Position numbers and translations under genes: made by a program. 64,000 bases of DNA from Lysobacter sp. MMG2 (GTDB taxonomy: Bacteria > Pseudomonadota > Gammaproteobacteria > Xanthomonadales > Xanthomonadaceae), in the NCBI RefSeq assembly GCF_016735495.2, contig NZ_JAERQY020000001.1, positions 1,240,001 to 1,304,000 of the forward strand, given 5' to 3'. The notes beneath the pieces were generated by a model, which had not been told where the DNA came from, ran no database searches, and worked only from the letters and a program-made list of their open reading frames with translations. Positions 31,443 to 45,613 of this stretch are shown in pieces. Position 1 is the first letter of the stretch, and each line of letters opens with the position of its first letter.

Positions 31443-32399
31443 ATGCAATCGCCTTCCCTCGCCGGTAACTCAACGCCCACCGTTTCCGTGGTTTCGCCGG
31501 TGTACGGCTGCCGCGGGTGCCTGGAAGAGCTGGTCGATTCCGTGGCCGCGCAACTGCGCGGTACCGTCGACGATTTCGAGGTGATCCTCGTCGACGACGC
31601 CAGCCCGGACCAGGCATGGTCGCGCATCCAGGAACTCGCGACGACGCGCCCGTGGCTGCGAGGCCTGCGCCTGGCCCGCAATTTCGGTCAGCATTCGGCG
31701 ATCTCCGCGGGCATCGAGCACGCGACGGGCGAGTGGGTCGTGGTGATGGACTGCGATCTGCAGGATCCACCCGCGGCGATTCCGGACCTGTACCGCAAGG
31801 CGACCTCCGAGAATTTCGACGTCGTCTTCGTGCAGCGTCAGAACCGCAAGGACAGCTGGAGCAAGCGCCTGTCGTCGTGGGGCTTCTTCCGGCTGCTGAC
31901 CTGGCTGACCGGCTCGCAGCAGGACGCAAGCACCGCGAACTTCGGCATCTTCCGCCGCCCGGTGATCGACGCGGTGTGCCGCATGCCGGAACGGGACCGC
32001 TCCTTCCCGCTCATGGTGAAGTGGGCCGGCTTCCGCCACGGGCTGCTTCCGGTCGAGCACGCACCGCGTGCCGAAGGACGCAGCACGTACACCCTGCGCA
32101 AACTGCTGCGCCTGGCGACCAACATCACCCTGGGCTATTCGGAAAAGCCGCTGAAGCTGGTCGCCTTCGCCGGCATCCTGTGCTCGCTGGTGTCGTTCTT
32201 CATGGTGGCACTGGCGGTGGCACGCTGGATCGACGGCGACATGGCCGTGGCCGGCTACACCTCGGTGATCGCATCGATCTGGCTCGTCGGGGGCATGCTG
32301 CTCTTCAGCCTGGGCGTGGTGGGCCTGTACGTGGGCCAGGTGTTCCGCAACGTGCAGGGGCGCCCGTACTACATCCTCGCCGAGGACACCCGTCGATGA
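31443..32399 (+). CDS. ArnC/GtrB-like polyprenyl-phosphate glycosyltransferase (GT2)
   Basis: A 318-residue GT2 enzyme with two C-terminal transmembrane helices (about residues 236-260 and 275-298). The catalytic acids are in ILVDDASPD and DCDLQDPP. It is particularly ArnC-like in RNFGQHSAISAGIEHATGEW and RQNRKDSWSKR, where ArnC has RNYGQHSAIMAG and RQNRQDSW. Such enzymes load a nucleotide-activated sugar onto undecaprenyl phosphate on the cytoplasmic face. The 4-amino sugar chemistry downstream (WecD-like, WecE) suggests an amino sugar donor. It overlaps the acyltransferase gene by 4 nt (ATGA). Confidence 0.85.
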   Translation: MQSPSLAGNSTPTVSVVSPVYGCRGCLEELVDSVAAQLRGTVDDFEVILVDDASPDQAWSRIQELATTRPWLRGLRLARNFGQHSAISAGIEHATGEWVVVMDCDLQDPPAAIPDLYRKATSENFDVVFVQRQNRKDSWSKRLSSWGFFRLLTWLTGSQQDASTANFGIFRRPVIDAVCRMPERDRSFPLMVKWAGFRHGLLPVEHAPRAEGRSTYTLRKLLRLATNITLGYSEKPLKLVAFAGILCSLVSFFMVALAVARWIDGDMAVAGYTSVIASIWLVGGMLLFSLGVVGLYVGQVFRNVQGRPYYILAEDTRR

Positions 32400-33157
32400 G
32401 CGCCACCGTCATCGAACATGCCGGTGGCCGCGCCGAAGTGCGCCTGACGCCCTGGGACGAACGCGCGCTGGGCATGCGGACCGCCGAGATCGTACGTCTG
32501 GAGGTTTCGGACGATCCGGCCGGGCGCCCGCTCATCGAAGAGGTTGAGCGCTGGGGCCGTGAGAACGGTGTCCGTTACCTGTTCGGCCGCGTGGACGCGG
32601 CAGCGCCATCGGCGAAGAAGGCCGTGCTCGATGCCGGCTTCGCGATCGTGGAATGTTCGATCGCACTGTCCCGCGCCGGCTTCGCCGGACTGCCGCCGGT
32701 GCCCGCGCGCATGCGACCCGCGTTGCGTCCGGCGGAAGAGGCCGACATCGGCGAACTCGAACGCATCGCGCGCGACGACTTCAATCACGGCCGCTTCCTG
32801 GAAGATCCCGCCATCGACCCCGCCCTCGCGGCGGCACGCACCGCGAACTGGATCGGAGACCTCGTCCGCCAGCGCCTCGCCTATGCGGCCACGTCGAACG
32901 GCAAGCTCATCGGCTTCCATGCCGAACGCGTCAGCGCCGACGGTCGTCATGCCGACCTGATCCTGACCGGCGCCACCGGACGCTATGCCATCATGGCAAT
33001 GCCACTGTGGATTACCGCGCTGGAGTCCCTTTCCGCGCGCGGCGTGCAGGACTGCTCGACGCTCATCTCCGCCGCCAACACCGGCATCGTGAACCTGTAC
33101 GCCAGGCTCGGATTCCGGTTCGACACCACTCTTTTCGGATTCAGGAAGTACCTATGA
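32396..33157 (+). CDS. WecD-like GNAT acyltransferase (4-amino-sugar N-acyltransferase)
   Basis: A 253-residue GNAT protein organised like E. coli WecD (TDP-Fuc4N acetyltransferase). The N-terminal half-domain has LTPWDERALGMRTAEIVRLE and KKAVLDAGFAIVECSIAL, corresponding to LTWENAFFG and LQQLGFSLVEGEVDL in WecD. The C-terminal GNAT domain ends TLISAANTGIVNLYARLGFR. In place of acetyl-CoA it may use the acyl chain of the ACP encoded by the next gene, which it overlaps by 4 nt. The donor is therefore uncertain. The matching aminotransferase, wecE, is in the same locus. Confidence 0.78.
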   Translation: MSATVIEHAGGRAEVRLTPWDERALGMRTAEIVRLEVSDDPAGRPLIEEVERWGRENGVRYLFGRVDAAAPSAKKAVLDAGFAIVECSIALSRAGFAGLPPVPARMRPALRPAEEADIGELERIARDDFNHGRFLEDPAIDPALAAARTANWIGDLVRQRLAYAATSNGKLIGFHAERVSADGRHADLILTGATGRYAIMAMPLWITALESLSARGVQDCSTLISAANTGIVNLYARLGFRFDTTLFGFRKYL

Positions 33158-33396
33158 ACGACAACACCGACCGCGTCGTCCAGGCGTTCTCCAGCGTGCT
33201 CGGCATTCCCGCCGATCGCATCACCGACGACCTGCGCTACGCCACGATCCCGGAGTGGGATTCGATCGCGCACATGTCCGTCATCGCGGCGCTGGAAGAT
33301 GCCTTCGGCGTGATGATCGACATGGACGACGTCATCGACATGAGCTCCGTCGGCAAGGCGCGCGAGATCCTCGCCAAGTACGGCGCCGCGGCCTGA
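33154..33396 (+). CDS. Dedicated acyl carrier protein
   Basis: An 80-residue ACP. The phosphopantetheine attachment serine is S37 in PEWDSIAHMSVIAALEDAF, followed by the acidic helix MIDMDDVIDMSS. It is unlike the housekeeping AcpP sequence (DSLD motif) and resembles ACPs of specialised acyl pathways. It overlaps the acyltransferase gene and is one base from the SDR gene, so it is made together with its likely partners. Confidence 0.92.
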   Translation: MNDNTDRVVQAFSSVLGIPADRITDDLRYATIPEWDSIAHMSVIAALEDAFGVMIDMDDVIDMSSVGKAREILAKYGAAA

Positions 33397-33397
33397 C

Positions 33398-34141
33398 ATG
33401 TCGCTGAAGGACCAGGTCATCGTGGTGACGGGCGCATCGCGCGGCATCGGCCGTGCGATCGCCCTGCATTGCGCTGGTCAAGGCGCGCAGCTGGTCCTCG
33501 TCGCGCGCGACGCGGATGCACTGCAAGGCGTGGCGGACGAATGCCTTGCCGCGGGCGGACCGGAACCGCATTGCGCTTCCCTCGACCTGACTCGCGACGA
33601 CGGCATCCCGGCGCTGTTCCAGGATCTGTTCGCGCGTTACCGCAAGCTCGACGGGCTGGTGAACAACGCCGGCATCCTGCACGAAGGCGTGCTCGGCATG
33701 ATCCGCCCCGACGACATCGACCGCGTGCTCGCGGTCAACGTCAAGGCGCCGCTGATGCTGATGCAGTACGCCGCGCGCCTGATGACGCGCAACAAGCGCG
33801 GGAGCATCGTCAACCTGGTTTCGATCATGGGCGTCCAGGGCGCGGCCGGCCTGACGCTGTACTCGGCGAGCAAGGCCGCGATGATCGGCGCGACGCTCTC
33901 CGCCTCGAAAGAACTCGCGCCACGCGGCATCCGCGTCAACGCGGTTTCTCCCGGCTTCATCGACACCGACATGACACGCGAGATGCCCGAGGCCGCGCAC
34001 GCCGCACGCGTCGCGTCGATCGGCCTGGGCCGCGCAGGAACGCCTCAGGAAGTCGCGCAACTCGTCGCCTTCCTGCTCGACGATGCGTCGGCCTATGTCA
34101 GCGGGCAGGTCGTCGGCATCGACGGCCGCATGGTGGTCTGA
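33398..34141 (+). CDS. FabG-like short-chain dehydrogenase/reductase
   Basis: A 247-residue NAD(P)-dependent SDR. The cofactor motif is TGASRGIGRAIAL, followed by NNAG and the catalytic YSASK (Tyr-x3-Lys). The closing GRAGTPQEVAQLVAFLLDD and GQVVGIDGRMVV are typical of 3-oxoacyl-ACP reductases. Next to an ACP it probably reduces an ACP-bound keto or aldehyde intermediate. It is not the housekeeping fabG, because no fabD/fabF genes surround it. Confidence 0.88.
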   Translation: MSLKDQVIVVTGASRGIGRAIALHCAGQGAQLVLVARDADALQGVADECLAAGGPEPHCASLDLTRDDGIPALFQDLFARYRKLDGLVNNAGILHEGVLGMIRPDDIDRVLAVNVKAPLMLMQYAARLMTRNKRGSIVNLVSIMGVQGAAGLTLYSASKAAMIGATLSASKELAPRGIRVNAVSPGFIDTDMTREMPEAAHAARVASIGLGRAGTPQEVAQLVAFLLDDASAYVSGQVVGIDGRMVV

Positions 34142-34144
34142 GCG

Positions 34145-35554
34145 ATGGCCTTCTGGGAACTGGAGCGGCAACGCGCCGACGCGATCGCGCTTGTCGATGC
34201 GCAGCGCTCGTGGACGTACGGCGAACTGGCGCGCCTGTCCGACAGTGCCGCGGCCGTGCTGGGACCGGGCCGAACGGTCGGTTTTCTGTGCATGCCCAGC
34301 ACCGTCGACGCGGTTGCGCTGTACCTGGGCGCGCTGCGTTCGCGGCGGCATGTTCCGCTGCTCGTGCAGCCGGATGTCGATGCGACGCTGCTTGCCGCGC
34401 TGGTGGCGCATTACCGTCCCGACTGGCTCGCCCTTCCGGACGGCAGCGAAATGGCCGGCTACGCCGTGGCGCATCGCGGCGGTGGCCTGGTCGTCCTCGT
34501 CCGTGACGAACCGGTGCACGCGCAGGCACCGCATCCGGACCTTGCCCTGCTGCTGAGCACGTCCGGCAGCACCGGCTCGTCCAAGCTGGTGCGCCTGTCG
34601 TACGAAGGCCTCGCCTCCAACGCGCGCGCGATCGCGCAGTACCTCGCCCTGCGCGAGGACGACCGCGCGATCACGACGCTGCCGCTGGCCTACTCGTTCG
34701 GCATGTCGATCCTCAACAGCCATCTGGAAGTCGGCGGGTCCATCATCCTCACCGAGGAGAGCCTGGTCGGTCGCGGCTTCTGGGATCTTGCCCGCACGCA
34801 CGGCGTCACGTCGCTCTCGGGCGTGCCCGCGACCTTCGAAATGCTGCGGCGCGTGGGGCTTGAGCGCTTCCAGCTCGATCGCCTGCGCATGCTCACGCAG
34901 GCCGGCGGCCGCCTGCGCGACGCGATGATCGAGACCTTCCTCGATTTGTGCGGGCGCATGGGGCTTGAGTTCTTCGTGATGTACGGGCAGACCGAGGCCG
35001 GCCCGCGCATCAGTTACGTGCCTGCCGCGCGGCTTCGCGAGAAGGTCGGCAGCATCGGCATCGCCATTCCCGGCGGCGAATTGCGCATCGACGCGGACAC
35101 TGGCGAACTGATCTATCGCGGGCCGAACGTGATGCTGGGCTACGCGGAGGCGCGCGGCGATCTGGCGCTGGGCGATCAGGCGAACGGGGAGCTTCGCACC
35201 GGTGACCTCGCCCGCCGCGACGAGGACGGGTTCTTCCATCTCACCGGGCGCGCCAAGCGCTTCATCAAGGTGTCGGGCAACCGGGTGAACCTCGATGAAG
35301 TGGAATCCATGCTCTCCGCCGAGCTGCAGCGCCTGGTGGCGTGCTCCGGCCGCGACGATGACCTGGTCGTCTTCGTCCCGGGCGAGTCGCCCGTCGAGCC
35401 CACGCGCATCAAGCAATTGATCCAGCAGCGTTACAAGCTCTTTCCCGGGCATGTGCGGTCGGTGGCGTTGGACGCCCTGCCGCTGTTGCCGACCGGCAAG
35501 ACCGACTATCAGGCGCTTCGCAGCATGAGCGAAGCCCAGGATGTACGAGCATGA
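34145..35554 (+). CDS. AMP-forming acyl-CoA/acyl-ACP synthetase
   Basis: A 469-residue ANL-family ligase that activates an acid as acyl-AMP and loads it on CoA or ACP. The motifs are LLSTSGSTGSSKLVRLS (P-loop), MYGQTEAGPR, and ELRTGDLARRDEDGFFHLTGR, with the late lysine in LPTGKTDYQ. It is shorter than acetyl-CoA synthetase and is closer to ligases that serve specialised ACPs. It follows the ACP and SDR genes and overlaps the LuxE-like gene by 4 nt. Confidence 0.88.
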   Translation: MAFWELERQRADAIALVDAQRSWTYGELARLSDSAAAVLGPGRTVGFLCMPSTVDAVALYLGALRSRRHVPLLVQPDVDATLLAALVAHYRPDWLALPDGSEMAGYAVAHRGGGLVVLVRDEPVHAQAPHPDLALLLSTSGSTGSSKLVRLSYEGLASNARAIAQYLALREDDRAITTLPLAYSFGMSILNSHLEVGGSIILTEESLVGRGFWDLARTHGVTSLSGVPATFEMLRRVGLERFQLDRLRMLTQAGGRLRDAMIETFLDLCGRMGLEFFVMYGQTEAGPRISYVPAARLREKVGSIGIAIPGGELRIDADTGELIYRGPNVMLGYAEARGDLALGDQANGELRTGDLARRDEDGFFHLTGRAKRFIKVSGNRVNLDEVESMLSAELQRLVACSGRDDDLVVFVPGESPVEPTRIKQLIQQRYKLFPGHVRSVALDALPLLPTGKTDYQALRSMSEAQDVRA

Positions 35555-36645
35555 GCGCCACTGAAGCGATCGCACCGCTGGAAGCGGACGTGTACGGCCT
35601 CGACCGGGAATCCAAACGGCGCTGGCTGCTGGACGGACTCAACGAACTGACGCGGCACCATCGCACGAACTGCCCCGAGTACGGCCGCATGGTCGATTCG
35701 CTTTGGCCGGCCTCGATCCAGGCGCAGGACCTCGAATCCGTGCCCTGGCTGCCTGTCCGGTTGTTCAAGATGCTGGACCTCAAGAGCGTTGCGCAGGAGG
35801 AAGTCTCGCGTACGCTCGTATCCAGCGGCACGACGGGAGCCGCGGTGTCGCGGATCTTCCTCGACGCCGACACCGCCCGCTCGCAAACGCGCGCGCTGAC
35901 CCGGATCTTCGCCGAGTTCGCCGGCAACAAGCGCATGCCCATGCTCGTCGTGGACGACGACAGCTTCCTGCGCGATCGCACGCGGTTCAACGCGCGCGCC
36001 GCCGGCATCCTCGGCTTCGCCAATTTCGGTCGCGACCACAAGTACCTGCTCGACGAACAGCTCCGGCCCGACTGGGACGCACTGCAGGCCTGGCTGGAGC
36101 GCCATCCCGACCAGCCGGTGTTCCTGTTCGGCTTCACGTACATCGTGTGGCAATCGCTGGTGATGGCCGCACGACGCGACGGCCGCCGCTTCCGCCTTCC
36201 GCATGGCAGCCTGCTGGTGCATGGCGGCGGCTGGAAGAAGATGGAGGAAGCCAAGGTGGACAACGCCGCGTTCAAGGCGGCCCTGCATGACGTCCTGGGC
36301 CTGGAGCGCGTGCACAACTACTACGGCATGGTCGAGCAGGTCGGCTCGGTGTTCTTCGAGTGCGAACACGGCCACCTGCACTCACCGGCCTATGCGGACG
36401 TGATCGTTCGCAGCACGGACGACCTGACTCCCGTGCCCAATGGAACGTCTGGTGTGATCCAGGTGCTGAGCCTGCTGCCGCGCAGCTACCCCGGGCATAG
36501 CCTCCTGACGGAGGACCTGGGCGTCGTGCATGGCGAGGACGATTGCCCTTGCGGACGCAAGGGCAAGCATTTCGGCGTGCTGGGCCGCCTGAAGAACGTG
36601 GAAGTACGCGGTTGCAGCGATACCCGGACGGTTCCCACGCCATGA
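35551..36645 (+). CDS. LuxE-like acyl-protein synthetase
   Basis: A 364-residue LuxE family protein. The nucleotide-binding SSGTTG is at 91-96. Other family features are FLFGFTYIVWQSL, LLVHGGGWKK, NYYGMVEQVGSVFFEC and a cysteine nine residues from the C-terminus (C355), the position at which LuxE is acylated as I recall. In luminous bacteria LuxE activates a fatty acid and hands it to the reductase LuxC. Here luxC-like follows with a 4-nt overlap, but there is no luxAB or luxD, so the pair must serve glycan chemistry. Confidence 0.85.
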   Translation: MSATEAIAPLEADVYGLDRESKRRWLLDGLNELTRHHRTNCPEYGRMVDSLWPASIQAQDLESVPWLPVRLFKMLDLKSVAQEEVSRTLVSSGTTGAAVSRIFLDADTARSQTRALTRIFAEFAGNKRMPMLVVDDDSFLRDRTRFNARAAGILGFANFGRDHKYLLDEQLRPDWDALQAWLERHPDQPVFLFGFTYIVWQSLVMAARRDGRRFRLPHGSLLVHGGGWKKMEEAKVDNAAFKAALHDVLGLERVHNYYGMVEQVGSVFFECEHGHLHSPAYADVIVRSTDDLTPVPNGTSGVIQVLSLLPRSYPGHSLLTEDLGVVHGEDDCPCGRKGKHFGVLGRLKNVEVRGCSDTRTVPTP

Positions 36646-37865
36646 CGACGTTCCTGTTCTCCAGTTCGGCCGACCCCGACCTTTCGGCGCAGCTCAAGCG
36701 GCTGCGGACGCTGGGCACGCTGCAGCCGTTCTCGCACGCCGCCACGGAGTTCGTCGGCGATTTCTCGCGGCGTGTGCTCAAGCTCCCGCAGCTTCGCGCG
36801 CACCCGGAACTGGCGACGCTCGCGCACTGGTTCCGCCCGGCCGGTATCGCTCATCTTGAGCGGCGCGCGTCCGCGGTCGAAGGCAACCGCATCCTCGCGC
36901 GCGGCCTCGTGTTCCATCTGGCTCCGGCCAACGTCGACGTGCTGTTCGCCTACGCCTGGCTGATGTCGGTGCTGTCCGGCAACGCCAACGTCGCGCGCCT
37001 GTCGCAGAAGCCCAGCGCGCAGCGCGACGCCCTGATCGGCATCCTCGGCGCGATGCGCGAGGAGGGCCTGCACGCGGAGGTCCTCGACCGGACGATCCTG
37101 CTCACCTATCCGCACGACGCCGCGATCACCGCGCAGCTTTCCTCGCACTGCCACGCACGCATCGTCTGGGGCGGGGACAGCACGGTTCGCACCATCCGCG
37201 CGATACCGCTGCCGCCGCTTGCCGTGGAGCTTGCGTTCCCGGACCGCTTCGGCGTCGCTGCGATTTCCGCGGCCGCGCTGGACGCGGTCGGCGAAGACGA
37301 TCTGCAACCGCTCGCGCGGCGTTTCGCCAACGACATCCTGTGGTTCGGCCAGCAGGCATGCTCGTCGCCGCGCTGCCTGTACTGGATCGGCGATCACGAG
37401 ACGATCGCGCGCGCCAAGTCCCGCCTATGGCGCGCGGTGCGTGAGGATTCGGCGCGCTTCGAGGACGAGGCCGCCGCGCTGATGAGTCGCGTGACCGATG
37501 CGCACCTGCTGGCCGCTCTGGGGCACGCCGAGACCATCGACGGCGGCTTTGCGTCTTTTCCGATCCGTCTGCAGGCCGCACATTCGGACGGCGATGTTCG
37601 CGAGCTCCAGTCCGGCAACGGGCTGGTCGTGGAAGTGGAACTGCCGTCGCTGGCCGACATGGGCGCGCAGCTCGACGATCGCGATCAGACCCTGGTGCAG
37701 TTCGGCTTCGACTCCGCCGACATCGACGCCCTGCTCGCGCAACTGCGCGGCCGCGCCATCGACCGCGTCGTGCCCTTCGGCCGCGCGCTCGACTTCCATC
37801 ATGTCTGGGATGGCACCGACCTGTTCAGCGTCCTGCGCCGACAGGTGACGCTCGCCAGCGTCTGA
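36642..37865 (+). CDS. LuxC-like acyl-CoA/acyl-protein reductase
   Basis: A 407-residue aldehyde-forming reductase of the LuxC family. The catalytic cysteine is C240 in WFGQQACSSPRCLYW. The NADPH-binding part contains LSGNANVARLSQKPS and RIVWGGDSTVRTIRA. It takes an acyl group from LuxE-type protein or CoA and reduces it to an aldehyde. Its translational coupling with the LuxE-like gene makes a carboxylic acid reductase pair. The acid is unknown; it need not be a long-chain fatty acid. Confidence 0.85.
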   Translation: MTTFLFSSSADPDLSAQLKRLRTLGTLQPFSHAATEFVGDFSRRVLKLPQLRAHPELATLAHWFRPAGIAHLERRASAVEGNRILARGLVFHLAPANVDVLFAYAWLMSVLSGNANVARLSQKPSAQRDALIGILGAMREEGLHAEVLDRTILLTYPHDAAITAQLSSHCHARIVWGGDSTVRTIRAIPLPPLAVELAFPDRFGVAAISAAALDAVGEDDLQPLARRFANDILWFGQQACSSPRCLYWIGDHETIARAKSRLWRAVREDSARFEDEAAALMSRVTDAHLLAALGHAETIDGGFASFPIRLQAAHSDGDVRELQSGNGLVVEVELPSLADMGAQLDDRDQTLVQFGFDSADIDALLAQLRGRAIDRVVPFGRALDFHHVWDGTDLFSVLRRQVTLASV

Positions 37866-37893: not shown

Positions 37894-39255
37894 ATGACCC
37901 TCTCTGCCTTCAAAGCCTATGACATCCGCGGCCGCGTGCCGGATGAACTCAACGAAGACATGGCGACCCGCATCGGCGTGGCGCTCGCGGGAATGCTCGA
38001 TCCCGGTCGCATCGTGGTGGGCCGCGACGTGCGTCTGAGCAGCGTCCCGATCCAGACCGCGCTCATCGACGGACTTCGCGCCACGGGCCGCGATGTGCTC
38101 GACATCGGGGAATGCGGCACGGAAGAGGTGTATTTCCAGACCGATCATCTGGACGCGGCAGGCGGCGTCATGGTGACCGCCAGCCACAACCCGATCGACT
38201 ACAACGGCATGAAGCTGGTGCGCGAGGAGGCCAAGCCCATCAGCGGCGACTCGGGCCTGTTCGCGATCCGTGACTCGGTGTGGACGCTTACGGTTCCCAC
38301 CGACCGCAACGCCGGTGCGCGCCTCCCGCATCCGGACAAGTCGGCGTTCATCTCGCACCTGCTCGGCTATATCGATACCGCCGCGCTGCGTCCGCTGAAG
38401 ATCGTGACGAATGCGGGCAATGGCGGCGCCGGTGCGATCGTGGACCTGCTTGCGCCGCACCTGCCGTTCGAGTTCGTGCGGGTGTTCCACGAACCGGACG
38501 GTCGCTTCCCCAACGGCATCCCGAATCCGCTGCTTCCGCAGAACCGCCAGGCCACCATGGACGCCGTGATCGCAAGTGGCGCGGACCTGGGACTGGCCTG
38601 GGACGGCGACTTCGACCGCTGCTTCTTCTTCGATCATCGCGGCCGTTTCATCGAGGGTTACTACCTGGTCGGCCTGCTGGCCCAGACCATCCTGCGCCGC
38701 AATCCGGGCGCCAAGGTGATCCACGATCCGCGGCTGACCTGGAACACGATCGAGATGGTCAACCAAGCCGGTGGCATCCCCGTGCTCAGCAAGACCGGCC
38801 ATGCCTTCATCAAGGAACGCATGCGGACCGAGAACGCCGTGTACGGCGGCGAGATGAGCGCGCACCACTACTTCCGCGACTTCGCCTATGCGGATTCGGG
38901 AATGATCCCGTGGCTGCTCATCGCCGAATTGATCTCGACCAGTGGGACCTCGCTCGCCGATCTGGTGGAGGAACGCATGCGCCGTTTCCCGTGCAGCGGC
39001 GAAATCAACTTCAGGGTCGCCGATTCGCGCGAGGCCATCGCCCGGGTGATGGACCATTACCTGCCGAGGAACCCCGTGCTGGACTACACCGACGGCACCA
39101 GCGCGGACTTCGGCGATTGGCGTTTCAACCTGCGCAGTTCGAACACCGAGCCGCTGCTGCGCCTCAACGTCGAAACGCGTGGCGACGCCGCGCTGCTTGA
39201 GCGGCAGACGGCCGAACTGTCGGCACTCATCGGCACGCCGGATGCAGGCCACTAG
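37894..39255 (+). CDS. xanA: Phosphomannomutase/phosphoglucomutase
   Basis: A 453-residue alpha-D-phosphohexomutase. It starts MTLSAFKAYDIRGRVPDELN, almost as Xanthomonas XanA. The phosphoserine loop is TASHNP (S97 at its centre), the metal site is DGDFDRCFFFD, and the phosphate-binding end is LRSSNTEPLLRLNVETR. It makes mannose-1-P for XanB and hence GDP-mannose for Gmd/Rmd, and perhaps glucose-1-P for dTDP-sugars. It lies 28 nt after the luxC-like gene on the same strand. Confidence 0.94.
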   Translation: MTLSAFKAYDIRGRVPDELNEDMATRIGVALAGMLDPGRIVVGRDVRLSSVPIQTALIDGLRATGRDVLDIGECGTEEVYFQTDHLDAAGGVMVTASHNPIDYNGMKLVREEAKPISGDSGLFAIRDSVWTLTVPTDRNAGARLPHPDKSAFISHLLGYIDTAALRPLKIVTNAGNGGAGAIVDLLAPHLPFEFVRVFHEPDGRFPNGIPNPLLPQNRQATMDAVIASGADLGLAWDGDFDRCFFFDHRGRFIEGYYLVGLLAQTILRRNPGAKVIHDPRLTWNTIEMVNQAGGIPVLSKTGHAFIKERMRTENAVYGGEMSAHHYFRDFAYADSGMIPWLLIAELISTSGTSLADLVEERMRRFPCSGEINFRVADSREAIARVMDHYLPRNPVLDYTDGTSADFGDWRFNLRSSNTEPLLRLNVETRGDAALLERQTAELSALIGTPDAGH

Positions 39256-39336: not shown

Positions 39337-39702
39337 GTGAGCTATGTCTTCATCGCCCTGACGATCCTGCTGACCGTGTACGGTCAGATCGTCCTGAAAT
39401 GGCAGGTTGGCCTGAATCCGACGGCGACCATCGAGAACTTGACGCTGCGTCCGATCCTGACGCTGTTGTTGAATCCATGGGTCATCAGCGCCTTTGCCGC
39501 GGCGTTCGGCGCATCGCTGTGCTGGATGGCCGCCATCAGCCGATTGCCGCTGAGCAAGGCGTATCCTTTCACCGCCCTGAGTTTCCCGCTGGTGGCGCTG
39601 CTGGCCGCCTGGCTGTTCCACGAGAATTTCGACATGCACAAGGTCGGCGGCACTGCGCTGGTGATCGCCGGTGTCATCGTTCTTTCACGATCAGGAATCT
39701 AG
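39337..39702 (+). CDS. Small EamA/SMR-like membrane protein (probable polyprenyl-sugar flippase subunit)
   Basis: A 121-residue protein with four transmembrane helices and the half-EamA pattern (YGQIVLKWQVG near the N-terminus, SRLPLSKAYPFTALSFPLVALLAAWLFHE, then GGTALVIAGVIVL). Its size and pattern are like ArnE/ArnF, which flip undecaprenyl-phosphate-aminoarabinose. With the ArnC-like GT2 and the GT-C protein in this locus it makes a complete three-part periplasmic glycosylation set. It probably acts as a dimer. No second small subunit is present. Confidence 0.8.
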   Translation: MSYVFIALTILLTVYGQIVLKWQVGLNPTATIENLTLRPILTLLLNPWVISAFAAAFGASLCWMAAISRLPLSKAYPFTALSFPLVALLAAWLFHENFDMHKVGGTALVIAGVIVLSRSGI

Positions 39703-39704
39703 AC

Positions 39705-40328
39705 GTGGCACAGATCACCCATGGCGTTCGTTCGGTACTCTCCTCGGCCGTCGTCTACGATCTGACCCAGCGGATACTGGGTGCCGAACGCAGTCGCCGC
39801 ATCCTGGTCCGCGATTACATCCGGCCCGAGCAGAGCGACCTCGTGTTCGACATCGGCTGCGGCACGGCCGAAATGCTGCGCCACCTGCCCGAGCACGTTC
39901 GCTACATCGGCTTCGACCTGTCGCAGGACTATATCGACGCAGCGCGCCGGCGCTTCGGTGATCGCGGCAGCTTCGAGTGCATCGACGTCGCCGACTACCA
40001 GGACACTGCGCACGACGGCGGCGCCGACATTGCCCTGGCCATCGGCCTGCTGCACCACCTCGACGACGATCGTGCGGCCGCCCTGATGCGGACGGCCTGG
40101 AACAAGCTGCGCCCGGGCGGCCGACTCATCACCATCGACGGCACCCTCGTCCCGGACCAGTCCGGCATGGCACGCACGATCATCCTCAAGGACCGAGGGC
40201 AGAACATCCGCGAACCCGGGCAGTACACGTCCCTTGCGACGCAAGTGTTCGGCTCGGTGAAGACGACCGTGCGGCATGACATGCTCTACGTGCCTTACAC
40301 CCACTGCATCCTCGAATGCACGCGCTGA
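39705..40328 (+). CDS. Class I SAM-dependent methyltransferase
   Basis: A 207-residue Rossmann methyltransferase: motif I VFDIGCGTAEML, then YIGFDLSQDYIDAAR, ALAIGLLHHLDDD and LRPGGRLITIDGTLV. The substrate is unknown. Given its place between the flippase and wecE it may methylate the amino sugar or its acyl group. The GTG at 39705 is chosen: it lies 3 nt past the previous stop and has an AGGAA Shine-Dalgarno. The longer frame upstream runs through the EamA gene in another phase. Confidence 0.82.
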   Translation: MAQITHGVRSVLSSAVVYDLTQRILGAERSRRILVRDYIRPEQSDLVFDIGCGTAEMLRHLPEHVRYIGFDLSQDYIDAARRRFGDRGSFECIDVADYQDTAHDGGADIALAIGLLHHLDDDRAAALMRTAWNKLRPGGRLITIDGTLVPDQSGMARTIILKDRGQNIREPGQYTSLATQVFGSVKTTVRHDMLYVPYTHCILECTR

Positions 40329-40359: not shown

Positions 40360-41499
40360 GTGATTCCGTTCAACAAGCCCTACATGACGGGCCGCGAGCT
40401 GTCGAACATCGCCCAGGCGCACACCAATGGCCATCTGTCGGGCGATGGGATCTTCACCAAGCGCTGCAACCAGTGGCTGGAGCAGCACACCGGGGCCCGC
40501 CGCGCGCTGCTCACGCACTCGTGCACCGCGGCGCTGGAGATGGCAGCCCTGCTCCTGGACCTGGAGCCCGGCGACGAAGTGATCATGCCGTCCTTCACGT
40601 TCGTTTCGACCGCCAACGCCTTCGTGTTGCGGGGCGCCATACCGGTGTTCGTCGACATCCGGCCGGACACGCTCAACCTCGATGAGCGCCTGATCGAAGC
40701 CGCGATCACGCCGCGCACGAAAGCCATTTGCGTCGTGCACTACGCCGGTGTCGCGTGCGAGATGGACGCCATCATGGACATCGCCCGTCGTCATGGCCTG
40801 CACGTCGTGGAAGACGCCGCACAGGGCATCTACTCCACCTACAAGGGACGACCGCTGGGCGCGATCGGCGAACTTGGCGCGATGAGCTTCCACGAGACGA
40901 AGAACATCATCTCGGGCGAAGGCGGCGCGCTGATCGTTCGCGACGAGACGTTCGCCGAGCGTGCCGAGATCATCCGCGAGAAGGGCACCAACCGCAGCAA
41001 GTTCTTCCGCGGCCAGGTCGACAAGTACACCTGGGTCGACAAGGGTTCTTCCTACCTGCCGAGCGAACTCATCGCCGCGTTCCTGGCCGCGCAGATGGAC
41101 GAGGGCGACGAGATCACCCGTCGCCGCATCGCCATCTGGGATCGCTACCACGCCTGGGCCGAACGCCACGAGGCCGATGGCCTGCTGCGCCGCCCGATCG
41201 TTCCGGAGCATTGCGGGCACAACGCGCACATGTACTACCTGCTGATGCCGAGCCTGGAGCACCGCACGCGCTTCATGGCGCGGATGAAGGAGTCCGGCGT
41301 GGGCACGGTGTTCCACTACATCCCGCTGCACAGCGCACCGACCGGCCTTCAGTGCGGCCGTGCCCATGGCGAGTTGCCGGTGACCGACACGACCAGCGAT
41401 CGTCTGGTGCGGCTGCCCCTTTGGGTGGGACTGGAACCGCAGCTCGATCGCGTCCTGGAAGCGGCGGACGAAGCGCTGGGCGTCATGCTCGGCGCCTGA
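40360..41499 (+). CDS. wecE: dTDP-4-amino-4,6-dideoxygalactose transaminase
   Basis: A 379-residue PLP aminotransferase of the DegT family, very close to E. coli WecE: GDGIFTKRCNQWLEQ, LEPGDEVIMPSFTFVSTANA, HYAGVACEMDAIM, SFHETKN with the PLP lysine at K181 (the same number as in WecE) and IIREKGTNRSKFFRGQVDKY. It converts dTDP-4-keto-6-deoxyglucose to dTDP-Fuc4N using glutamate. The dTDP-sugar precursor enzymes (RmlA, RmlB) are not in the window. The start is GTG at 40360 with a GGAG upstream. It ends the left half of the locus at a strong terminator. Confidence 0.92.
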   Translation: MIPFNKPYMTGRELSNIAQAHTNGHLSGDGIFTKRCNQWLEQHTGARRALLTHSCTAALEMAALLLDLEPGDEVIMPSFTFVSTANAFVLRGAIPVFVDIRPDTLNLDERLIEAAITPRTKAICVVHYAGVACEMDAIMDIARRHGLHVVEDAAQGIYSTYKGRPLGAIGELGAMSFHETKNIISGEGGALIVRDETFAERAEIIREKGTNRSKFFRGQVDKYTWVDKGSSYLPSELIAAFLAAQMDEGDEITRRRIAIWDRYHAWAERHEADGLLRRPIVPEHCGHNAHMYYLLMPSLEHRTRFMARMKESGVGTVFHYIPLHSAPTGLQCGRAHGELPVTDTTSDRLVRLPLWVGLEPQLDRVLEAADEALGVMLGA

Positions 41500-41560: not shown

Positions 41561-43645
41561 TCAAGGCCTGGGCGGCTTGCCCGCGACCGGGCCGCGACGC
41601 TGCAACTGGATGCCGTACAGGCGAAGTTCGCTGGAGCCGTCGGTGAGGACGCGGAACTCCAGATCCGAAGCATCTTCTGGCAGGTCGAATGGCAGTGTGA
41701 TGCGCTGTCGTCCCGCGCGCTTCGCCGAACCGGTCACCCGCACATCCGAACCCGCCTTTGCAGAGACGTCCAGCGTCGCCACTCCAGGCCCCGCCTGACC
41801 CAGCACCTCGATATCGAACGTCGCGGCGTACTGGCCCTGCTCAAGGCGAATGTAGGGTCCGAAATGAAGGAAGCCAGGCTGCCCCTTGGTCGCCAGGACA
41901 CTGGCACTTCCGACCTGGAGCAGTTCGCCAACCGTGTGCAGCGATGTCGTCGAGGGCGTCAACAAGCGGGGACGCCGCACTTCGTCGTCCCATAAAGGGA
42001 GCGTCTCGGCAAAGTTCCTGGCGTACACGAGAACGTTGAAGTCGCCAAACCTGCGGATGCGCACAGGCTCGCCCGCGAGGGATGCAAGCAGGGGAAGATT
42101 GAGTTCCGCCAACTCGTCGTCCTTCAAGGCCAGGAACGTCTCGCCAGACCACGCCTTGGGCCGGTACCAGTTCTCCGACGCGAGGTGCAGCATCGGACGG
42201 GGTAGACCGTCGGCGAACCTGATCTGTCGTATGCGGACGTTTCCACCACTGAGCACAGTAGGCGCACCTGCGTTCCAGTACGTGGCATAGCCGTAGCGTA
42301 GCCCGTCAGCCTGAAGCGCTCGGACGAGCTCGGTATGCGCCGTAACCGGTCGTTTGGTGGTGGGGTGCGAAAGGATATTGGAGGGCAGGACGGCGCTGGT
42401 CATCAACACCAGCGAAACCATCAACGCCGCGAAGCGATACAGCGGAGAAGCATCAGGGCTGAAAATCCTGATGAACACCACCAGGAGTCCGAATGCGAGG
42501 GAAGGCACGAGGTAGCGTGCGGCCGCCTCCGGGGTCACCATGCTAGGAATGGTTGTCGTGCATTGGAGAAAGAAGAACAACGCACAAGAGAAGGCCGTGA
42601 ACGAGGCGATGAAACGCAGCCCCGGGTTCCGATCCCGCAAACAGGCGATTACTCCCACGACGATGAGTACGAGCGCGGTGATGCCCGCGAGCATCCTGAT
42701 CGCCTGGTAGGCCCCTTCAAGGCTGAGTATCGATCCACCTGGGCTGGGCACGGCGCCGAGGATGTCGAGCAATCCCTGCAGCGTGAACTTGAGATTGCGG
42801 ACCATGTCCGAGAACGGCAGCCACTTGGCCAAGCCGACGTCGAAGACGTTGTTGACGTGGCCGATCGTGACTGCATGGAGGATCGCGCCCAGCAATCCGC
42901 TCACGAGAACCAGGGCCACGAGCCAGAGCGCGCGTTTGGTGTCTGCGTCCCAGCGCAACTCCTGCGTCCAGGCACGATGGACGAGCGTTGCCCCAATCGC
43001 GGCCATCAACGGCAGCGCATACGATGCCGCCGCGCGCTGCGCGTTGCTCCAGAAGGCCAGCGTCATGATGACGCCCATCAACGCGCCCCAGAGCCACAGC
43101 TTGCGGCCTTGCGCGTGCAAGAAACGCCAGGCCAGGAAAAGCATGAAGCAGGCAAGGTAGAAGACGACTCCGTACCCACCCTGGCCGTAGAACTGCTCCG
43201 CGATCTGCCATGAGATCCCGCTGGCAAACACTGCGATGCACAGCAGCCGCACCCAACGCGACGGATTGGCGATTCCTACCGCGAGCCACATGCCCGACAA
43301 GACCAGCAACGACGTCAGCGCACCCGAGATTGCATGGAGCGAGAACCCGTTGGACGCGAACGGAAGGAACGGGAGGATGAACAGTTGTCCGAAGACAACC
43401 ATCAGATCGCCATTAACATAAGTCCAGTCAGGCGGAAAGAACGAGCGGCTCTCGTACATTTCCTGCGCGAGCAGGTTCTTCGTCCCCGCATCCGAGTTGA
43501 AGTCCTGGACATACCCCAGAAAAACGAAGTCGAAGAGCAGCAGCAGGTTGCATGCAACGACCAAGAGCAGGGCAACTTTGGAACAACGCACCATCAGGCC
43601 GTCGCGTCCGGACCAACTCATCCAGGAGTTGCCTTCACCGTTCAT
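41561..43645 (-). CDS. Polytopic membrane protein, probable GT-C glycosyltransferase
   Basis: A 694-residue protein: about eleven hydrophobic helices in residues 15-425, then a soluble C-terminal region of about 260 residues with a beta-rich, lectin-like end (LEQGQYAATFDIEVLGQAGP). The first external loop carries acidic residues (YVQDFNSDAGTKNLLAQEMY), where GT-C enzymes keep their catalytic Asp. No named family is certain. As the last step of an ArnC-like/EamA route it would add the lipid-linked sugar in the periplasm. Base composition is less GC-rich than its neighbours. ATG 43645 is used. An upstream ATG at 43658 is out of frame by one base across a run of eight G. Confidence 0.65.
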   Translation of the reverse strand: MNGEGNSWMSWSGRDGLMVRCSKVALLLVVACNLLLLFDFVFLGYVQDFNSDAGTKNLLAQEMYESRSFFPPDWTYVNGDLMVVFGQLFILPFLPFASNGFSLHAISGALTSLLVLSGMWLAVGIANPSRWVRLLCIAVFASGISWQIAEQFYGQGGYGVVFYLACFMLFLAWRFLHAQGRKLWLWGALMGVIMTLAFWSNAQRAAASYALPLMAAIGATLVHRAWTQELRWDADTKRALWLVALVLVSGLLGAILHAVTIGHVNNVFDVGLAKWLPFSDMVRNLKFTLQGLLDILGAVPSPGGSILSLEGAYQAIRMLAGITALVLIVVGVIACLRDRNPGLRFIASFTAFSCALFFFLQCTTTIPSMVTPEAAARYLVPSLAFGLLVVFIRIFSPDASPLYRFAALMVSLVLMTSAVLPSNILSHPTTKRPVTAHTELVRALQADGLRYGYATYWNAGAPTVLSGGNVRIRQIRFADGLPRPMLHLASENWYRPKAWSGETFLALKDDELAELNLPLLASLAGEPVRIRRFGDFNVLVYARNFAETLPLWDDEVRRPRLLTPSTTSLHTVGELLQVGSASVLATKGQPGFLHFGPYIRLEQGQYAATFDIEVLGQAGPGVATLDVSAKAGSDVRVTGSAKRAGRQRITLPFDLPEDASDLEFRVLTDGSSELRLYGIQLQRRGPVAGKPPRP

Positions 43646-43686
43646 GTACCCCCCCCATGTTTCGATCTCGCTTCCCCATTGCCAGT

Positions 43687-45613
<1,927 letters not shown>

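Follow-up and report, generated by a model that had tools for sequence, protein, structure and literature searches.

The window analysed here is a stretch of 64,000 nucleotides from Lysobacter sp. MMG2 (contig NZ_JAERQY020000001.1, positions 1,240,001 to 1,304,000), in which a LuxE gene and a LuxC gene lie within an O-antigen locus. The two enzymes probably act as a reductase of small acids within a hydroxy-acyl pathway for N-acylation of 4-amino-4,6-dideoxygalactose (Fuc4N) in the O-antigen, a reading of the sequence in which we have moderate confidence. The first-pass annotation had presented them as a pair. Both genes were real and intact, but they did not stand alone: they formed the end of a coupled same-strand run of a GT2 glycosyltransferase, a WecD-like acyltransferase, an acyl carrier protein (ACP), a short-chain dehydrogenase/reductase (SDR), an AMP-forming acyl ligase (AMP-ligase), LuxE and LuxC. 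Overlaps of four bases were found at the GT2/WecD-like, WecD-like/ACP, AMP-ligase/LuxE and LuxE/LuxC junctions, and the remaining two junctions were gaps of one and three bases. Phosphomannomutase, ArnF-like EamA, methyltransferase and WecE genes followed 3' of luxC.

31443..32399, + strand: GT2 glycosyltransferase, ArnC/GtrB-like (undecaprenyl-phosphate sugar transferase type); Pfam Glycos_transf_2, E 3.7e-31; NCBIfam PgfS 185.5 bits and ArnC-type 168.1 bits, both below cut-off
32396..33157, + strand: WecD-like GNAT N-acyltransferase (P0007); homologue profile and AlphaFold2/Foldseek
33154..33396, + strand: ACP, phosphopantetheine serine in WDSIAHM (motif by eye); Pfam PP-binding, E 8.6e-9
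33398..34141, + strand: SDR oxidoreductase, FabG-like; Pfam adh_short_C2, E 2.1e-59; NCBIfam FabG models, below cut-off
34145..35554, + strand: AMP-ligase, 469 aa; Pfam AMP-binding, E 8.7e-44
35551..36645, + strand: LuxE-family acyl-protein synthetase, 364 aa, SSGTTG at 91-96, acyl-carrying Cys355; Pfam LuxE PF04443, E 1.8e-53
36642..37865, + strand: LuxC-family acyl reductase, 407 aa from its ATG, active-site Cys240; Pfam LuxC PF05893, E 1.3e-26
37894..39255, + strand: phosphomannomutase of CpsG type, flanked by luxC and the EamA gene; family search
39337..39702, + strand: EamA small membrane protein, ArnE/ArnF flippase-like; Pfam EamA, E 5.4e-8; ArnF model 56.1 bits, below the cut-off of 99
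39708..40328 (approximate start), + strand: SAM methyltransferase; Pfam Methyltransf_12, E 3.4e-16
40360..41499 (approximate start), + strand: WecE, dTDP-4-amino-4,6-dideoxygalactose transaminase; NCBIfam WecE 602.4 bits, cut-off 375

The run was placed between etfBA and the cystathionine gamma-synthase gene (metB), with an O-antigen ABC transporter and GDP-sugar genes further away (names of flanking and distant genes read by eye, without family search). The five genes for ACP, SDR, AMP-ligase, LuxE and LuxC, in that order on one strand, are called the cassette below. In the window the cassette lies within a glycan locus and adjoins the gene of an amino-sugar acyltransferase (WecD-like).

Spread and conservation of the cassette

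A scan of named genomes matched at least 592 stretches, 585 of which were confirmed; Stenotrophomonas and Luteimonas were among the relatives, which points to Lysobacteraceae as the window's family. The best 80 were retained (39 Bacillota, 30 Pseudomonadota, 4 Melainabacteria, 4 Bacteroidota and one each from Actinomycetota, Thermodesulfobacteriota and Spirochaetota). With four of the six plasmid loci fetched (two distant ones were left out; 56 plasmid records had matched) they make up the 84 cassette loci used here. The query was derived from the window's subfamily and these loci matched it best, so they are uninformative on LuxE at large; since contigs were as short as 3 kb, absences among them are lower bounds.

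The AMP-ligase and LuxE were present in all 84 loci, a LuxC gene in 81, ACP in 76, SDR in 67 and a DegT aminotransferase in 47. One locus (L066) was counted as lacking a LuxC gene though its LuxC is fused to LuxE. LuxE and LuxC were adjacent in 74/84 loci and AMP-ligase and LuxE in 71/84, and the order AMP-LuxE-LuxC held in 76/84, across all seven phyla. The full order ACP-SDR-AMP-LuxE-LuxC, judged by these labels only, was found in 25/84 loci: 13 from Pseudomonadota, nine from Bacillota, one from Thermodesulfobacteriota and the plasmid loci of Deinococcus and Nonomuraea. A search of viral contigs for relatives gave three pattern matches and no true relative.

Within the family of the window's host, LuxE was encoded in 10 of 395 genomes: its own, a second genome of the same species, six more of cassette type and two with a distant LuxE (L010 and L011, 26% identity), so that eight of the ten were cassette type. 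The family loci kept the GT2, GNAT, ACP, SDR, AMP-ligase, LuxE, LuxC, EamA and WecE genes, with or without the methyltransferase; a few members were unassigned in single maps. The phosphomannomutase gene between luxC and the EamA gene was observed in both genomes of the species (window and L115), and it had no match in ten loci (nine genomes) of relatives.

Several loci deviated from this layout. Two LuxE copies from different branches of the LuxE tree occurred in each of L032, L068, L086 and L152, and the first three of these also had two LuxC genes. In L155 (9197-15044) and L105 (9037-15137), a different LuxE-LuxC pair was followed by an ABC transporter with an NMT1/THI5-like binding protein (Pfam basis from L155 only) and an SDR, with no adjacent ACP or AMP-ligase label. 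On the minus strand of the window, 41561-43723 encoded a large protein, membrane-like by eye, which had no Pfam match and no counterpart in ten loci of relatives; for these reasons it was dropped as a candidate for the attaching glycosyltransferase. After wecE, those ten loci carried other, unassigned genes of about 500-750 aa instead.

LuxE and LuxC relative to luminescence genes and RfbN-like loci

As the first-pass annotation had described, LuxE carried the SSGTTG motif and a cysteine (C355) nine residues before its C-terminal end, and C240 of LuxC lay within QQACSSPR. In the alignments, the LuxE cysteine was kept in 97/97 cassette rows, 2/2 RfbN-like rows, 3/3 luxCDABE rows and 19/19 others, and the LuxC cysteine in 95/95, 2/2, 3/3 and 12/12, respectively. 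The absence of luxA, luxB and luxD nearby was also borne out: with these three genes of a luxCDABE operon as tblastn queries (E 1e-4), no match was obtained in the window, in the 84 cassette loci or in seven loci of the window's family, while 3/3 lux control loci matched. The host genome encoded one LuxC. It gave no luxD-family match, a weak negative since the same search matched none of its 14 controls. One generic luciferase-family protein was encoded on another contig, and that family was also matched in 10/14 control genomes.

The window LuxE scored 69.9 bits against the curated long-chain cut-off of 550, and LuxC 27.8 bits against 750. LuxE was closer to a LuxE::LuxC fusion protein of locus L146 (36% identity, E 7e-63) than to LuxE of luxCDABE (20%, E 1.6e-12). 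A LuxE tree of 121 rows, picked from the collected loci, was rooted on luxCDABE. It joined the LuxE proteins of the cassette in a 107-row clade (SH-aLRT 97); the RfbN-like domain was the nearest neighbour of this clade (92, not starred), and luxCDABE was remote. This tree and the LuxC tree were quick searches with long-branch warnings (L014, L015 and the RfbN-like rows). The comparison of O-antigen with luminous sequences that had been proposed at first pass thus placed LuxE of glycan loci in a clade of its own. Because of this separation, the idea that the enzymes were repurposed from luminescence found no support, and a repurposed luciferase operon was rejected, luxA, luxB and luxD being absent as well. 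The other part of the earlier claim, an acid reductase for glycan acyl chemistry whose substrate need not be a fatty acid, was the best-supported reading in direction, on account of the gene neighbours (WecE, WecD-like, ACP, AMP-ligase), the LuxE tree and the tetronate precedent of Vibrio cholerae O1.

Two loci, L146 (6830-12111) and L147 (7775-13035), encoded in a row an ACP, an AMP-ligase (473 aa), an iron alcohol dehydrogenase (Fe-ADH) and a LuxE::LuxC fusion (825 aa); the Fe-ADH of L147 was assigned by its 96% identity to that of L146. These tetronate-like operons are called RfbN-like here. The layout comes from the two loci rather than from V. cholerae itself, for which RfbK, RfbM and a LuxC part of RfbN are presumptive assignments. 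Fusions also occurred inside the cassette clade, each as one open frame: LuxE::LuxC in L152 (13597-15915) and L066 (4068-6332), and AMP-ligase::LuxE in L154 (7469-10273). Such fusions indicate that the enzymes serve one path. No Fe-ADH match was found in the window, and one weak match (L079) was found in the 84 cassette loci. Because the Fe-ADH of the RfbN-like loci is exchanged for an SDR in the cassette, the comparison suggests that the SDR may reduce the aldehyde.

The cassette clade of the LuxE tree was itself divided. The window LuxE fell in clade A, among rows from loci mostly with an SDR only. Clade B (52 rows, support 96) went with thiamine-diphosphate enzymes: a split transketolase or an acetolactate-synthase-like gene was present in the locus for 35/42 labelled clade B rows vs 4/44 in clade A, a contrast whose Fisher value is descriptive only because tree rows are not independent. 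The SDR-only label was clustered on both trees (0/500 shuffles). Taken singly, the transketolase and acetolactate-synthase labels change often and were hardly clustered on either tree: of 500 shuffles, 62 and 15, respectively, had no more changes than the observed labels on the LuxE tree, and 280 and 67 on the LuxC tree. The association of clade B with thiamine-diphosphate carboligases hints at extension of the aldehyde.

Among the 84 loci, split transketolase genes stood beside the AMP-ligase, LuxE and LuxC (TktC in 25 loci, TktN in 23; examples are L014, L026, L032, L038, L047, L051, L056, L067, L076 and L088). In L050 (4324-12218), an operon of ACP, FabZ-like, acetolactate-synthase-like and NeuB-like genes lay near the AMP-ligase, LuxE and LuxC. 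Similar operons, some with a metallo-hydrolase, were observed in L087, L062, L031, L033 and L071 (families tested in L050 only). The neighbouring NeuB and IlvB genes are reminiscent of sfmA and sfmB in Shewanella oneidensis, a species with an extra group of 236-264 Da on its flagellin (PMC3765264). The computed mass of C9H16O7 is 236.09.

Proposed pathway and competing explanations

The acyltransferase of the locus (P0007) had no Pfam match at E 0.001. A profile of 12 homologues gave WecD (2fs5) as the best match in the Protein Data Bank (PDB; E 2.4e-6), and its AlphaFold2 model (pLDDT 92.4) likewise had WecD as the best Foldseek PDB match (E 5.7e-15, TM 0.68/0.76); profile and fold identified what Pfam alone had overlooked. 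WecD is the TDP-fucosamine acetyltransferase. Since WecE exceeded its curated cut-off and its best solved chain was the same enzyme (6blg, E 6.6e-139), the acceptor sugar is predicted to be dTDP-Fuc4N. RmlB, the precursor enzyme, was present in the genome (511.2 bits, cut-off 365.1). The ACP and acyl pathway adjoining the WecD-like and WecE genes suggest a donor other than acetyl-CoA, predicted to be an acyl-ACP.

From these data, we infer substrate, product, order of steps and acceptor sugar as follows. LuxE would adenylate a carboxyl group of a short acid; a diacid resembling malate or succinate, activated at its far carboxyl, is the best guess. The acyl group would be handed on via Cys355 of LuxE to Cys240 of LuxC, which with NAD(P)H would reduce it to the aldehyde. 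The SDR would turn the aldehyde into an alcohol, a role held by the Fe-ADH in RfbN-like loci. The AMP-ligase and ACP would carry the hydroxy acid, with loading either before or after reduction, and P0007 would transfer the hydroxy-acyl group to the 4-amino group of dTDP-Fuc4N, made via RmlB and WecE. Transfer of the sugar onto undecaprenyl phosphate and its passage across the membrane would fall to the ArnC/GtrB-like enzyme and the EamA protein. Dihydroxybutyryl or 4-hydroxybutyryl would be the most likely acyl group within this scheme, at a probability somewhat short of even.

A mass from another organism bears on the acyl group. Aeromonas piscicola AH-3, in which the cassette is present (PMC7874193), has been described with a 376.14 Da derivative of pseudaminic acid as well as an unassigned moiety of 102 Da, and A. 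caviae Sch3N, which has a six-gene locus, with Pse5Ac7Ac. Exchanging one N-acetyl group (42.011) for dihydroxybutyryl (C4H6O3, 102.032) gives a computed 376.148; with myristoyl it would be 484.3. The AH-3 mass is compatible with a dihydroxybutyryl group, which is a fit, not a proof.

Several points weigh against small-acid reduction for Fuc4N acylation. C4H6O3 could equally be O-methylglyceroyl, formyl plus C5H8O3 has the same mass, formyl plus malyl comes to 376.112, and the exact mass behind the fit is that of cassette-bearing AH-3 alone. The SDR label was missing in 17/84 loci (some on short contigs), and three genes stand between the cassette and WecE in the window. The RfbN-like LuxE domain sits on a long branch; the RfbN-like LuxC domain fell outside the cassette LuxC clade, on the lux side, and for this reason the two trees are in incomplete agreement. 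The excerpts of open-licence PubMed Central (PMC) literature yielded neither a substrate nor a product known for a cassette of the SDR type.

The FabG-like SDR could, to judge from its sequence, also act on 3-oxoacyl-ACP. It would then make a 3-hydroxyacyl-ACP such as 3-hydroxybutyryl-ACP for Fuc4N by a short type-II fatty-acid logic, with LuxE-LuxC in a separate role. The SDR does match FabG models, and the 3,5-dihydroxyhexanoyl group of Flavobacterium psychrophilum has been ascribed to an ACP, ketosynthases, a reductase and a PglD-like transferase (PMC6519341). However, no ketosynthase was found among the ten window proteins scanned, and a FabH-like cluster (named by eye) occurred in 8/84 loci vs 84 for LuxE and 81 for LuxC, and we regard this route as unlikely. 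We give still less credence to a fatty acid reductase, by which the cassette would yield a fatty aldehyde or acyl group and the glycan would bear a lipid (the 'liposugar' of flagellin islands). The homology names speak for it, it was proposed by Forn-Cuni 2021 (PMC7874193), and De Maayer and Cowan 2016 (PMC4875605) described such genes as fatty acid synthesis genes; yet both enzymes score far below the long-chain cut-offs, luxD is absent nearby and the AH-3 derivative is too small for a long chain.

Alternatively, instead of being reduced, the aldehyde might act as the electrophile when a thiamine-diphosphate enzyme forms a carbon-carbon bond. The gene content of clade B speaks for this, but the window belongs to clade A and no such enzyme was among its ten scanned proteins, which makes this very improbable here. 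That the genes are a decayed, functionless remnant agrees with their patchy occurrence in the family; against this, the frames are open, the operon is coupled, the catalytic residues are kept and the same module recurs in other genera as well as in the species' second genome, so decay has next to no likelihood. Small-acid reduction in a hydroxy-acyl pathway remains the favoured reading. In a wider and distinctly tentative proposal, LuxE-LuxC would be, rather than chiefly a pair of light-organ enzymes, the central part of machinery present across bacteria, which would use a dedicated ACP to build polar hydroxy-acyl groups for amino sugars of the cell surface. The window clade would reduce the aldehyde to an omega-hydroxy acyl group (dihydroxybutyryl type), and in the sister clade thiamine-diphosphate carboligases, either a split transketolase or an acetolactate-synthase-like enzyme together with a NeuB-like one, would lengthen the aldehyde into polyhydroxylated acyl chains.

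Comparison with known systems

The system is of a known kind, represented by the LuxE domain of RfbN (a 2016 paper citing Morona 1995) and by flagellin-glycosylation islands (2016, 2021). In the excerpts of open-licence PMC literature, no mention was found of the cassette in a Lysobacteraceae O-antigen locus or of a tie to dihydroxybutyryl. The present analysis adds the setting with wecD-like and wecE genes, the range of phyla, the gene fusions, the fit to the AH-3 mass and the sister clade linked to thiamine-diphosphate enzymes. If the favoured reading is true, LuxE-LuxC are reductases for small polar acids, and, across seven or more phyla, many loci for O-antigen, flagellin or exopolysaccharide gain an assignable acyl pathway.

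With the fatty acid reductase of luxCDABE (LuxE-LuxC entry PDB 7xc6), the window shares both enzyme families and the catalytic cysteines. It differs in lacking luxA, luxB and luxD nearby, in scores far below the curated cut-offs and in its separate LuxE clade. As in WecE-WecD of enterobacterial common antigen, the aminotransferase is above the WecE cut-off and the closest solved structure of the acyltransferase is WecD, but the window has its own ACP and acyl pathway alongside.

The cassette of Aeromonas group II flagellin-glycosylation islands (98 strains; ACP, 3-oxoacyl-ACP reductase, AMP synthetase, luxE, luxC; PMC7874193) has the same five genes in identical order, in a glycan locus and beside an amino-sugar acyltransferase gene (PseH in Aeromonas), and Aeromonas L061 and L096 share the 107-row LuxE clade with the window. 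In contrast, the window is an O-antigen locus between etfBA and metB in which WecD-like and WecE genes replace the pse genes. Similar genes in enterobacterial islands have been described as fatty acid synthesis genes (PMC4875605), and the Dickeya island has tktA and tktB in addition; no published product for the Aeromonas or enterobacterial island cassette was found in the excerpts.

In V. cholerae O1, perosamine is acylated by tetronate, the acyl group being (S)-2,4-dihydroxybutyryl. The LuxE domain of RfbN is part of tetronate synthesis (2016 paper citing Morona 1995), and the O1 antigen requires wbeL, which is predicted to be a tetronate gene and encodes 471 residues. To judge from its structure, (S)-2,4-dihydroxybutyryl would be the product expected from L-malate by reduction of the far carboxyl. 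As in RfbKLMN(O)/WbeK-O, where an AMP-ligase and a LuxE domain feed the N-acyl group of a 4-amino-4,6-dideoxy sugar in an O-antigen, the window has an ACP, an AMP-ligase and LuxE and LuxC domains. However, its LuxE and LuxC are two genes with a 4-base overlap rather than fused as in L146 and L147, an SDR stands in place of the Fe-ADH, and its sugar genes are of Fuc4N rather than perosamine type. Lacking the fusion and the Fe-ADH, the window was not filed under RfbKLMN; it may still work alike. The tetronate system of V. cholerae O1 now serves as a precedent for an orphan cassette that had been labelled as fatty acid synthesis in flagellin islands, and a concrete, testable product is proposed for it: Fuc4N or pseudaminic acid bearing a small hydroxy-acyl group in amide linkage.

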